DNA of 64,000 bases, from positions 1 through 64,000 of the forward strand of contig JANYDK010000145.1 in the NCBI GenBank assembly GCA_025363655.1, given 5' to 3'. The notes beneath the pieces were generated by a model, which was given only the letters and a program-made list of their open reading frames with translations, did no database searches and had not been told where the DNA came from. Shown piece after piece: positions 11,921 to 15,250 of this stretch (positions within the stretch are counted from its first letter, which is position 1; the number at the start of each line of letters is the position of its first letter). A program made the position numbers and the translations under genes. The stretch comes from Deltaproteobacteria bacterium. GTDB taxonomy: Bacteria > Myxococcota_A > Polyangia > Polyangiales > JADJMO01.

Positions 11921-13291
11921 TCAGTGCGCGGTGCGACCGGGCTTCGCGTTCCACACGAAGAGCATGAGCACCGCGCCCATCGCCGCGAAGGGGATGAGCG
12001 ACCAGGTCCACGCTTCCCAGTGATACTTCTTCAGCACCCAGCCGAGGCCGAAACCGGTGAGCCCGCTGGCCACGTATTGCACGCCGTCGAGGATGCCGGC
12101 GGCGCTCGCGGCGGCCTTTTTTCCGCCGAAATCAGCGGAGGCGGTGCCCGAGAGCATGCCATGCACGCCGAAGATGAACATGCACGAGAGGCCGATCATC
12201 AAGGCCGCCAAGATCGGTGAGCCGACCGGGACGCGACCGAGGAGGAAGATGCAGACGATCTGGCCGAGGTAGAAGATGAAGGCGACCGGCGGGCGACGCG
12301 ACTGGAAGATGCGATCGCTGAGGAGGCCGCAGGTGATGCCGCCGACGATGCCGCCGATGGTGATGCCGTTGGCGGTCCAGAAGTGGACGCTGTTGCCGAC
12401 GGGCTGAAGGTGAACCTCGACGAGAAATTCCGTCATGTAGAGGAGCAGCCCTTGTCGCACGAAGCCGGTGCAGAACTCGGCCGCCATGATCACGCGGATG
12501 ACCGGGTGCATGACGACCTTGCGGAAGACGTACGAGAGATCGGCCGGCTTGTCGTCGCCGGAAGATGCGTCGCCGGTCTGGATGTCGTCGAAGCCGGCAT
12601 CGCTCGGTTTGTCACGGACGCGCAGGTAGAGGACGACGAACATGATCGCCGTCGCCACCGCGGGCACGAGATACACCGGCGCGAAGGCCATCGGGCCGAG
12701 GCCCCATTTGGCCTTCGACCATTTGAAGATGGCGCCGCCGACGAAGAAGGCGAGCCAGTACCCGAGCCCGATGAGTATCGCGAAGACGCCGCCGAGGAGC
12801 CCGCGCTCGCGCACGTGGAACCACGCGGCGTTGATCTTGACGACGCTGACGGCGCCGAAGCTCTGGAAGTACATCGTCAGCGCGTAGAAGCAGGACATGC
12901 CGACGACGAGGCTCGTCGTCCAACCGCTGAGGAAGAAGACGCCGACGAGCGTGTTCATCAGCGCGACGCCGACGGCGCCGATGAGGATCGACTTACGGCC
13001 GCCGATGCGATCGGCGAGGGGGCCGTTGACGATGACCGACATCGCGTACGTCCAGAAGCCGGCGGTGGCGATGGCGCCGACCTGCGCCTTGTCGAGATGG
13101 TAGTAGGCGCCGATGTCGCCCTTGACGACGTTGAAGTTGTAGCGACCCATGTAGAAGGCCGCGTACATGATTCCGAGGGGAATCCAGTTGTGCGCGCGCC
13201 TCGCGCGGAACGCCGGCGCGTGATCGGGGGCCACGTCGAGCGCGCTCTCGACCGCCGGAGCCTTGCCTACAGCCTTCGCCTCCCACGACAT
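11921..13291 (-). CDS. MFS transporter, organophosphate:phosphate antiporter (UhpC/GlpT) type
   Basis: A 456-residue integral membrane protein with about 12 hydrophobic helices. The N-terminal helix carries MYAAFYMGRYNFNVV, very like the 'Y..RyN' signature of the OPA family. The loop 2-3 motif is ADRIGGRKSILIGAVG and the second-half counterpart is LLSDRIFQSRRPPVAF. OPA proteins exchange hexose-phosphate, glycerol-3-phosphate or phosphoglycerate for phosphate at the inner membrane, or sense the sugar phosphate (UhpC). The substrate cannot be told from sequence alone. It stands alone on its strand, 75 nt from the start of the Cys-rich lipoprotein gene. Confidence 0.9.
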   Translation of the reverse strand: MSWEAKAVGKAPAVESALDVAPDHAPAFRARRAHNWIPLGIMYAAFYMGRYNFNVVKGDIGAYYHLDKAQVGAIATAGFWTYAMSVIVNGPLADRIGGRKSILIGAVGVALMNTLVGVFFLSGWTTSLVVGMSCFYALTMYFQSFGAVSVVKINAAWFHVRERGLLGGVFAILIGLGYWLAFFVGGAIFKWSKAKWGLGPMAFAPVYLVPAVATAIMFVVLYLRVRDKPSDAGFDDIQTGDASSGDDKPADLSYVFRKVVMHPVIRVIMAAEFCTGFVRQGLLLYMTEFLVEVHLQPVGNSVHFWTANGITIGGIVGGITCGLLSDRIFQSRRPPVAFIFYLGQIVCIFLLGRVPVGSPILAALMIGLSCMFIFGVHGMLSGTASADFGGKKAAASAAGILDGVQYVASGLTGFGLGWVLKKYHWEAWTWSLIPFAAMGAVLMLFVWNAKPGRTAH

Positions 13292-13343: not shown

Positions 13344-14225
13344 TCATGGGGTGCAGCCGAGGGCGACGTCGGTCGTGTACGATTTCGTCCCACGGAAGTA
13401 GGTGATTTGGGCGCTGGCTCCGCCGAGGAAGTCGACGACGATCGACACCGGCTTGGGGTTGGGGATGGGCGTGGCGGTGATGTGACCGCTGGTCGCGCAC
13501 TTCGCCTTCGGACCGCTGTGCACGTAGTTCTTGATGTTGAGCGAGACGCCTTTGTCTTTGCCCGTCTTGAAGTCGACCGTGGTGGTGGAGTTGCCGTCGA
13601 TGGTGACCGTGTGCGGCGTCGTGTTCTCGACGGTGATGTTGTAGTGCGCGTCTTGCGAGACTGGCCGATTCTTCAAGGTGAGCCCCTCGAACTGCCCGTC
13701 CCAATGGATGATGCGCTGGCTACCCGAGAACGAGACGAGCGCCGTGGCCTTCTCGGTCGCCGGCTTGCCATTGAGCTGAAGGTCGCCGCCGTCGACGACG
13801 TCGATCTGGATGATGCCCGCGCTCGGCGAAGTAAACGTGGCCTTGAGGGTGCCGCTCGCGAGCACGAGGCCGAGTGGACCGGTGCAGCCGCTGAGCGTGT
13901 AGTCGATTTCCGTGGGAGAAATCTGCGTCGCCGTGGCGCATTTGTCGGTGCCGAGATAGGTCGCGCTCGCCGATTGGATGGCCTTCGTCGCTGCCAGCGC
14001 CGGGGTGCCGATGTCGAGCCGAGTGATCGCCAACGTCGGCAGCGCCACCAGCGATGACGCGGTGGTGCCCGTCTCTTCGCTGTCGTTCGAATCGCTGACC
14101 AGCGCCTCTTCCTCGGGCGTGAGCGGAGGATTGCCGACGCCGGTGCTCGAGCACCCGGTCATCGCGATCGGCGCTGCGAAAATTGCGACGATGGACACAA
14201 GCTGAAGGATGTTCGTGTTCTTCAT
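13344..14225 (-). CDS. Lipoprotein coupled to TIGR02147-family regulator
   Basis: A 293-residue protein with signal peptide and lipobox MTGC (MKNTNILQL start). The mature part is beta-rich with many Thr/Gly/Val strands, for example ITVENTTPHTVTIDGNSTTTVDF. It may be a beta-sandwich surface protein. No family was recognised. The ATG at 14225 overlaps the TGA of the upstream gene (ATGA), so its translation is probably coupled to the TIGR02147 protein. An in-frame start 14 codons earlier (14267) would lie inside that gene and gives a poorer signal peptide. Confidence 0.78.
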   Translation of the reverse strand: MKNTNILQLVSIVAIFAAPIAMTGCSSTGVGNPPLTPEEEALVSDSNDSEETGTTASSLVALPTLAITRLDIGTPALAATKAIQSASATYLGTDKCATATQISPTEIDYTLSGCTGPLGLVLASGTLKATFTSPSAGIIQIDVVDGGDLQLNGKPATEKATALVSFSGSQRIIHWDGQFEGLTLKNRPVSQDAHYNITVENTTPHTVTIDGNSTTTVDFKTGKDKGVSLNIKNYVHSGPKAKCATSGHITATPIPNPKPVSIVVDFLGGASAQITYFRGTKSYTTDVALGCTP

Positions 14226-15115
14226 TTCGACTCTTCCTCCCCAGGGGCGACCGAGAGGGGAAACCACTGCACGTTGAGCTGATACACCATCGTTCCGGAA
14301 GTGTCGGCGTCGCAGAGTTGGGTCATCTCTTCACGGAAGCGATGGATGCGCTCTTTGACGAGGGCCGCCGTCGCCGGTCCGACGCAGACCGTGAGCGCGG
14401 CGAGATCGCGGCGTTCGCGAGGCGTGTTCTCGATCGACGCCGAGGCGCGCTCGAGCATCTGGCGATGGAAATTGATGGTCGCCAGCGAGAGCGACTGATG
14501 TTCGGTGGTGAGGGTCGGCTCTCCGCGCATGATCTTGCCCGTGTCGATGTCGCGAACCAGTAGGCCCAGCGACAAGAGCAAGTTCAAGGCCGACGTCGCG
14601 TCGGGGACCGAGATCTTCGGCACCAGCTGCGCGGCGATCCATTTCGGATTTTCCTGGAAGTCGACGCGCGCCGCGAGCTCGCGAATCGCCGGGTAGTACC
14701 AGTGCGACAAGTACTTGAAGAGATCGCCCTCGATGCGGCGCGCGCTGCGGAAGCGACGTGAGGCCGAGATACGCTCGAACGCGCGATTCTTGTCGGCGAC
14801 GGAGTCGGCCTGCGTGAAGGTGACGAGGTCGGCGAAGAACGTCGCGGCCTCGCCGCTGAGCCCCATCGCGTGGGAAAACTTCGGCACCGTTTCGGGGCCG
14901 AGGTTGCGCTCGCCGTCCATCACCAGCTTGAGGAAGTTGGGCGATTTGAGCCCGGCGAGTCGCGAGAAGAAGCGATGCGAGAAGGCCGGTTTGCGCGCCT
15001 TCTCGGCGGCGTAGTAGGCGCGCAAGAACGCGCGGTAATCGAGAAACTCGAATACGTTCACGCTCGGCGATCGCGACCGCGCCGCAGGGGTTTTCTCCGA
15101 CATTTCCTGCTTCAT
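14222..15115 (-). CDS. TIGR02147-family protein, probable regulator
   Basis: A 297-residue soluble protein matching the TIGR02147 family. It has the N-terminal FEFLDYRAFLRAYYAAEKARKP block, then SHRFFSRLAGLKSPNFLKLVMDGERNLG (an HTH-like stretch), a central YLSHWYYPAIRELA block and NPKWIAAQLVPKIS. The C-terminal LSLATINFHRQMLERASASI region ends with VYQLNVQWFPLS. The family was described from Fibrobacter and is frequent in Myxococcota and Bdellovibrionota beside genes for secreted proteins. A DNA-binding regulatory role is inferred, not shown. Here the next gene, coupled by an ATGA overlap, encodes a lipoprotein. An inverted repeat overlapping a TATACT hexamer lies 45-65 nt upstream. Confidence 0.92.
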   Translation of the reverse strand: MKQEMSEKTPAARSRSPSVNVFEFLDYRAFLRAYYAAEKARKPAFSHRFFSRLAGLKSPNFLKLVMDGERNLGPETVPKFSHAMGLSGEAATFFADLVTFTQADSVADKNRAFERISASRRFRSARRIEGDLFKYLSHWYYPAIRELAARVDFQENPKWIAAQLVPKISVPDATSALNLLLSLGLLVRDIDTGKIMRGEPTLTTEHQSLSLATINFHRQMLERASASIENTPRERRDLAALTVCVGPATAALVKERIHRFREEMTQLCDADTSGTMVYQLNVQWFPLSVAPGEEESK

Positions 15116-15159
15116 TGTACGGCGGCCGTCCACGTTGTGCCAGGGCCTGCTGGGAGCTT

Positions 15160-15180
15160 TCGTATTCGCCCAGTATACGA
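15160..15180 (-). promoter_or_regulatory. Candidate -10 element within a dyad upstream of the TIGR02147 gene
   Basis: TCGTAT (15160-15165) and ATACGA (15175-15180) form an inverted repeat with a 9-nt spacer. On the minus strand the right arm includes TATACT (15177-15172), a good -10 hexamer, about 57 nt before the ATG at 15115. No convincing -35 is seen. The overlap of a dyad with a -10 suits a repressor or autoregulator site; this is inference. Confidence 0.4.
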
Positions 15181-15250
15181 TCGAGACTCCTGGTTCTCAC
15201 CGTTCGCGACGGCGATGTCGCGAGGGCTCGGCGGCTCCGGTCGAGCTCGT

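Follow-up and report, generated by a model that had tools for sequence, protein, structure and literature searches.

What kind of unit is formed by a TIGR02147 regulator gene and the lipoprotein gene that overlaps its end, and what does the inverted repeat in front of them do? We addressed this at one locus in a stretch of 64,000 nucleotides (contig JANYDK010000145.1 of assembly GCA_025363655.1, Deltaproteobacteria bacterium; hereafter the window). An earlier note on this DNA had reported that the stop codon of the regulator and the start codon of the lipoprotein overlap as ATGA and that an inverted repeat lies over a TATACT hexamer, and had read the arrangement as a 'dedicated sensor-regulator or surface-switch unit'. 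Both structural observations hold: the overlap lies at 14222-14225 on the minus strand, and the dyad TCGTAT-N9-ATACGA (15160-15180) spans TATACT (15172-15177), with a GTGAGA partner 17 nt upstream. The features of the locus are as follows:

13344..14225, minus strand: lipoprotein gene, 293 aa, start ATG at 14225, no Pfam family
14127..14147, minus strand: S-T-G-V-G-N-P, the N-terminal tag in its local variant of G-T-x-[TV]-G-N-P, at residues 27-33
14151..14225, minus strand: signal peptide and lipobox with lipidation Cys25 (codon 14151-14153), read from the sequence
14222..14225, minus strand: ATGA shared by the regulator's stop codon and the lipoprotein's start codon, from the sequence
14222..15103, minus strand: TIGR02147/DUF4423 regulator gene, 293 aa, start ATG at 15103, from profile matches and an AF2 model
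14900..14980, minus strand: putative XRE helix-turn-helix SHRFFSRLAGLKSPNFLKLVMDGERNL, the most strongly conserved stretch of the regulator, from fold search and alignment
15162..15178, minus strand: candidate operator GTATAC-TGGGC-GAATAC, the core of the dyad, from comparative evidence
15172..15200, minus strand: promoter-like GTGAGA-N17-TATACT, its -10 hexamer inside the candidate operator

The TIGR02147 assignment made in the earlier note was borne out. The regulator scored 244.6 bits against TIGR02147 (cut-off 50), covering profile positions 3-270 of 272, and 113.8 bits against DUF4423 (cut-off 30); with the curated cut-off passed, it is a full-length TIGR02147/DUF4423 member, and it is the only TIGR02147 copy in the 9 Mb source genome. 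An in-frame ATG at 15115 is a possible alternative start. The AF2 model has an XRE-like helical N-terminus, a winged-helix-like middle and a C-terminal DUF4423 part, with a pLDDT of 95-97 for residues 20-100 (the XRE-like domain) and lower confidence in the C-terminal part. Foldseek matched the XRE-like domain to C.AhdI and C.BclI (probability 0.97-0.99; no match with E < 0.001), and its matches, which were to controller and antitoxin helix-turn-helix domains, were confined to this first part of the protein. No Pfam helix-turn-helix family matched the regulator, and neither a sequence search nor a whole-fold search found a solved relative. The helix-turn-helix in the model indicates that the regulator would be an XRE-type DNA-binding protein. 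We rejected a phage or plasmid origin, as phages, plasmids and viral contigs gave no match.

We compared about 200 loci. TIGR02147 genes were carried by 21 of 57 related genomes, and at the 30 loci from these 57 genomes the next gene almost always overlapped the regulator gene by -4 or -1 and encoded a lipoprotein tagged C-x-G-T-E-T-G-N-P or a close form of it. A GTDB-wide scan found the strict tag pattern in 69 of 80 loci. Pooling gave 173 distinct regulators, and pairing was scored on the 101 best-scoring. Among these, 86 had the strict tag in the next gene downstream and six more had near-variant tags (L131, L109, L088, L113, L155 and L171). Five others from one clade (L065, L069, L070, L073 and L074), considered as solo regulators, were rejected as such, since each has a tagged lipoprotein (GGTDVGNG) in divergent orientation across a shared promoter region. 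A tagged exported neighbour thus accompanied 97 of the 101 best-scoring regulators (86 strict, 6 near-variant and 5 divergent), in keeping with the earlier statement that TIGR02147 genes often sit beside genes for secreted proteins. The tag of L128, from the same genome as L287, is apparently frameshifted, and no tagged partner was present at L071, L103 or L125. In a later sample of other Myxococcota families, about 30 of 40 loci were paired, and in Bdellovibrionota 131 of 144 sampled genomes carried TIGR02147, many with 10-20 matches.

The -4 overlap seen in the window is more frequent than any other arrangement (73 of 120 tagged partners), divergent clades have the pair without translational coupling, and pairs are mostly inherited as units. 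No conserved third gene or dedicated processing enzyme was found beside the pair, and we rejected such a gene as part of the module because the downstream clusters contain only close relatives. To judge from this comparison, regulator and tagged partner almost certainly form a dedicated pair with a functional tag. At the locus itself, an MFS transporter gene of the phosphoglycerate/hexose-phosphate type (PgtP/UhpC/GlpT; 11921-13291, minus strand) begins 52 bp after the lipoprotein gene; one is also found behind the pair in the sister genome G001 (40% identity), and not generally.

The strongest feature of the pair, absent from the earlier note, is the peptide tag. The window lipoprotein starts M-K-N-T-N...P-I-A-M-T-G and continues with C25, which on reading by eye is a signal peptide with a lipobox before the Cys; its mature N-terminus reads C-S-S-T-G-V-G-N-P and is the sole match to a loose tag pattern in the source genome. 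The rest of the protein matched no Pfam family. Its body is predicted to be mostly beta, the N-terminal 72 residues are of low confidence, and the weak model (mean pLDDT 58) had no Foldseek match. Elsewhere in Myxococcota the tag takes the form G-T-x-[TV]-G-N-P after a lipobox or signal peptide, and in Bdellovibrionota it is often G-[GF]-[VE]-[DE]-[VI]-G-N-G. Bdellovibrionota partners are either lipoproteins that bear the Myxococcota-type tag or secreted soluble proteins in which G-G-V-D-V-G-N-G or G-F-E-I-G-N-G directly follows the signal peptide. In an alignment of 81 partners (consensus CxGTxTGNP), no column but that of the Asn is invariant, and the Gly next to it comes close. Codon use in the tag hardly departs from background, which argues that it is kept as a peptide rather than as DNA, and we rejected a DNA-level operator inside the gene on this ground.

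The bodies behind the tag fall into 11 homology clusters and 15 singletons with no detectable similarity between them, and their families include serpin, Beta_propel, META and unknowns. By comparison of these sequences, the tag is evidently a module carried by proteins of unrelated bodies. One could instead suppose a single old regulator-lipoprotein operon whose lipoprotein body drifted past recognition, its N-terminus kept for a reason unrelated to the regulator. Many of the bodies could be remote homologues, the pairs pass down mostly as units, and lipoproteins in two sister genomes are only 31-32% identical to that of the window whereas the regulators are 78-80% identical. We nevertheless regard this descent as improbable: serpin, Beta_propel and META are different known folds, soluble and lipidated partners have the same tag core, and a drifting, unused N-terminus would not hold Gly-Asn nearly invariant across two phyla. 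The serpins (L082, L114 and L122) span the whole domain (E down to 2.6e-103) and, by their architecture, are bacterial lipoprotein protease inhibitors.

The tag is also confined to the neighbourhood of the regulator. In the 57 genomes the strict pattern gave 22 matches, every one in a TIGR02147 carrier and 21 of them adjoining the gene; the remaining one is a fragment that lacks a signal peptide. Across 238 Myxococcota genomes, 11 of 11 in-frame matches to the strict pattern, which takes in the T-E/D-T/S form only and leaves outside its scope the V-type tags common elsewhere in Myxococcota, were in carriers, and the 182 non-carriers had no such match; two further matches have a stop codon inside the pattern and are due to chance. 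For the soluble-type tag of Bdellovibrionota, 11 of 14 matches lay directly downstream of TIGR02147 and the other 3 were not in exported proteins. Genomes with one TIGR02147 gene hold exactly one tag, and the tags of paralogues within one genome are near identical, with up to 11 full copies in G012.

This distribution bears on the idea that the tag serves export or surface sorting and is recognised by an envelope receptor, with TIGR02147 merely a local regulator of the cargo. Protein-sorting tags of this general kind are known in MYXO-CTERM/myxosortase and in the Bacteroidota lipoprotein export signal, which likewise are short conserved modules on otherwise unrelated exported proteins, MYXO-CTERM being a comparable dedicated C-terminal tag in myxobacteria itself. 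The partners resemble surface or periplasmic proteins (serpins, beta-propeller), and the tag mostly stands 2 residues past the Cys (48 of 75 lipoproteins), the classical place of a lipoprotein sorting signal. In contrast to those systems, however, the tag here is N-terminal, occurs on lipidated and soluble proteins alike and goes one-to-one with a regulator gene, and beside the pair we found no processing enzyme. A sorting signal would be expected on exported proteins irrespective of a regulator neighbour; apart from the one fragment, strict tags on exported proteins away from TIGR02147 were not found, a genome with a single regulator holds a single tag, and no third gene travels with the pair. 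The tag in some cases also stands tens of residues past the Cys or occurs twice (L179, L180 and L199), and on balance we consider a sorting signal unlikely.

By itself, the dyad is weak evidence. Although the exact TCGTAT-N9-ATACGA occurs once in the 9 Mb genome and promoter-like sites in the stretch number 2 against 0.1 expected, a 6-bp dyad with 2 mismatches allowed is expected 0.79 times in the window by chance, and its significance comes from conservation. The comparison indicates that the conserved core is better given as GTATAC-N5-GAATAC than as TCGTAT-N9-ATACGA. Exact GTATWC-N5-GWATAC lay upstream of TIGR02147 genes in 18 of 89 Myxococcota regions and 6 of 82 other regions, with 0-2 matches at any other spacer and none in 173 in-gene pieces, and the peak at spacer 5 came back in a hold-out set of 35 further regulators. 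Counting perfect 6-bp inverted repeats of any sequence in Myxococcota gave 30 at spacer 5, where shuffles gave 4.2, and also lesser excesses at spacers 3 and 7 that are partly due to the self-complementary arm; in Bdellovibrionota this sequence-free test did not single out spacer 5. Exact operators were found in a minority of upstream regions, and 59 loci considered have no assigned operator. Symmetric variants also occur (GTGTAC-N5-GTACAC, GTTTAC-N5-GTAAAC and GAATAC-N5-GTATTC). These comparisons suggest that the dyad is a conserved operator of TIGR02147 genes. That it is instead a chance palindrome in a promoter, before an ordinary operon of unrelated genes, is very improbable: a dyad of this size is not significant within the window alone, but the recurrence is spacer-specific in two independent sets, the variants are symmetric and the pairing is as frequent as given above, so that only an artefact of the locus set could save this view.

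The earlier note had named a lack of conservation of neighbour and dyad as one thing that would refute it; the comparison came out the other way, with both conserved across Myxococcota and Bdellovibrionota, and its 'dedicated unit' stands. 'Sensor' and 'surface switch' find no support in the comparison: neither a ligand nor a phase-variation or switching feature was seen.

Would the regulator bind this operator? In its helix-turn-helix, S-P-N goes with the arm GTA and S-[TSF]-N with GTG or GTT, and a Leu in helix 2 goes with GA or GC replacing GT in the arm; in SHRFFSRLAGLKSPNFLKLVMDGERNL, the positions that track operator variants are H (helix 2) and P (of S-P-N). The tables of recognition helix against operator variant look very strong (33/1 versus 0/10 and 35/0 versus 0/6), but on the tree they come down to no more than 2 and 1 independent changes, so the code is supportive only. 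Autoregulated XRE operons are well known, and the locus resembles the XRE/Cro-C1 autorepressors C.AhdI and C.BclI in its predicted helix-turn-helix, in a palindromic operator over the gene's own -10, its arms spaced by one helical turn (11 bp between their centres), and in a co-transcribed partner. The partner of those autorepressors is a cytoplasmic enzyme, whereas here it is an exported tagged protein, and the TIGR02147 regulator has an additional winged-helix-like domain and DUF4423. We think it very probable that the operator is bound by the regulator. Repression is suggested because the operator covers the regulator's own -10, and negative autoregulation is likely. In the sister genome G001, the roughly 300 bp before the regulator (L054) hold many extra CGTATTC half-sites among repeated GC-rich inverted repeats.

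The source genome has three exact operator sites, and the two distal ones lie 54 and 65 bp before lipoprotein genes (G000:C49:45551, L239, and G000:C113:93384, L240; one lipoprotein is Asp-rich and one has a CxxCH motif). Over the 57 genomes, 23 exact sites occurred in 172 Mb of carriers, 8 before TIGR02147 and 15 distal, against 5 in 224 Mb of non-carriers (distal carrier versus non-carrier sites, p 0.004, raw for base composition and relatedness). Seven of the 15 distal sites lie 54-98 bp before a lipoprotein start, in the source genome and a few relatives. These lipoproteins have no tag, so the apparent targets of the regulator are not all tagged. For a lipoprotein regulon of this regulator, we see the odds as even.

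The best overall explanation, to which we give a probability of about 0.5, is a self-contained, self-regulated two-gene module with tag feedback. The first gene would encode a cytoplasmic two-domain DNA-binding regulator (XRE-type helix-turn-helix, winged helix and DUF4423) that binds GTATWC-N5-GWATAC over its own -10 and probably represses its own promoter, and the same operator before a few other lipoprotein genes would give a small regulon. The product of the second gene would be exported and could have almost any fold, with the tag G-T-x-x-G-N-P in its disordered mature N-terminus. The regulator would most likely recognise this tag on the unexported precursor, and transcription would then follow the export state of the partner; recognition might act in cis, with both proteins made from one message. 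The comparison supports the pairing, the tag, its exclusivity and the operator; DNA binding, repression, the regulon and contact of the regulator with the tag are steps that we infer. The tagged partner looks more like an input than a mere output because the tag is found only beside the regulator, on unrelated proteins, and is absent from the distal targets. Recognition of the precursor is favoured since a cytoplasmic regulator meets an exported protein only before export. Against the reading stand the near-identical tags of paralogues, which would make tag sensing cross-talk unless it acted in cis, as well as the untagged distal targets, the minority of upstream regions with an exact operator and the uncoupled pairs of divergent clades. 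That the regulator contacts the tag at all we put forward tentatively, at somewhat less than even odds; contact with the unexported precursor in particular is more doubtful.

A different input would be peptide signalling, in which the tag would be cut from its protein outside the cytoplasm and then taken up again to act as the regulator's ligand. This is how Gram-positive RRNPP pairs work, in which regulators such as PrgX, PlcR and Rgg have an XRE-type DNA-binding domain, TPR repeats and an adjacent secreted peptide. The likeness is real, with an XRE-type domain and a regulator gene beside an exported product that has a short conserved peptide; four Bdellovibrionota partners (L179, L180, L199 and L203) carry the tag twice within their first hundred residues, which could be seen as tandem copies, and PrgX appeared weakly in the regulator's fold search (rank 37, E 0.56). 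Against it, no Pfam TPR family matched the regulator, and its C-terminal part in the AF2 model is mixed rather than a TPR array. The peptide here sits at the mature N-terminus of large proteins, in lipoproteins tied to the lipidated Cys, with no conserved processing site around it, and the outer membrane of these Gram-negative-type hosts would be a barrier to its return. We therefore give peptide signalling little chance and keep the module with tag feedback as the preferred reading.

The family entry for TIGR02147 (Fsuc_second)/DUF4423 is silent on function, partner and operator; what we add are GTATWC-N5-GWATAC and the tagged partner, both new as far as the literature searched shows. In that literature we found no mention of TIGR02147, DUF4423 only in passing, and nothing on the pair or the tag (string TETGNP). 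We know of no precedent for a family of regulators linked to a tag that exported proteins carry. Regulator, tagged exported protein and operator together suggest that predatory and social bacteria have a type of two-gene control unit not described before, and the family, multi-copy in sampled Bdellovibrionota and recurrent in Myxococcota, is without a described function in the literature searched. A named operator and a short tag make its function directly testable, and the tag marks many hypothetical surface proteins of these bacteria as one class and offers a search handle for regulons. If the regulator does read the tag, this would be a new way to tie transcription to protein export. We think it rather unlikely that TIGR02147 is a general system of regulators and tags that senses export, with an operator code of its own, across both phyla. 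The one passing mention of DUF4423 concerns Bd3700, whose expression rises while B. bacteriovorus grows in prey (PMC12546842).

Divergent Bdellovibrio paralogues of TIGR02147 have partners with other Gly/Asn-rich starts, or no secreted partner. Beside ten such Bdellovibrionota paralogues (L138-L143, L214, L225, L230 and L233), the next secreted protein starts with GAGNGGGAWVC, GNGGD and the like, and these starts are possibly a second tag class. At one locus (L197, G067:C31:17500-24500), a single frame of 946 residues fuses a TIGR02147 regulator, a signal peptide and a GGDVKNGG secreted protein.
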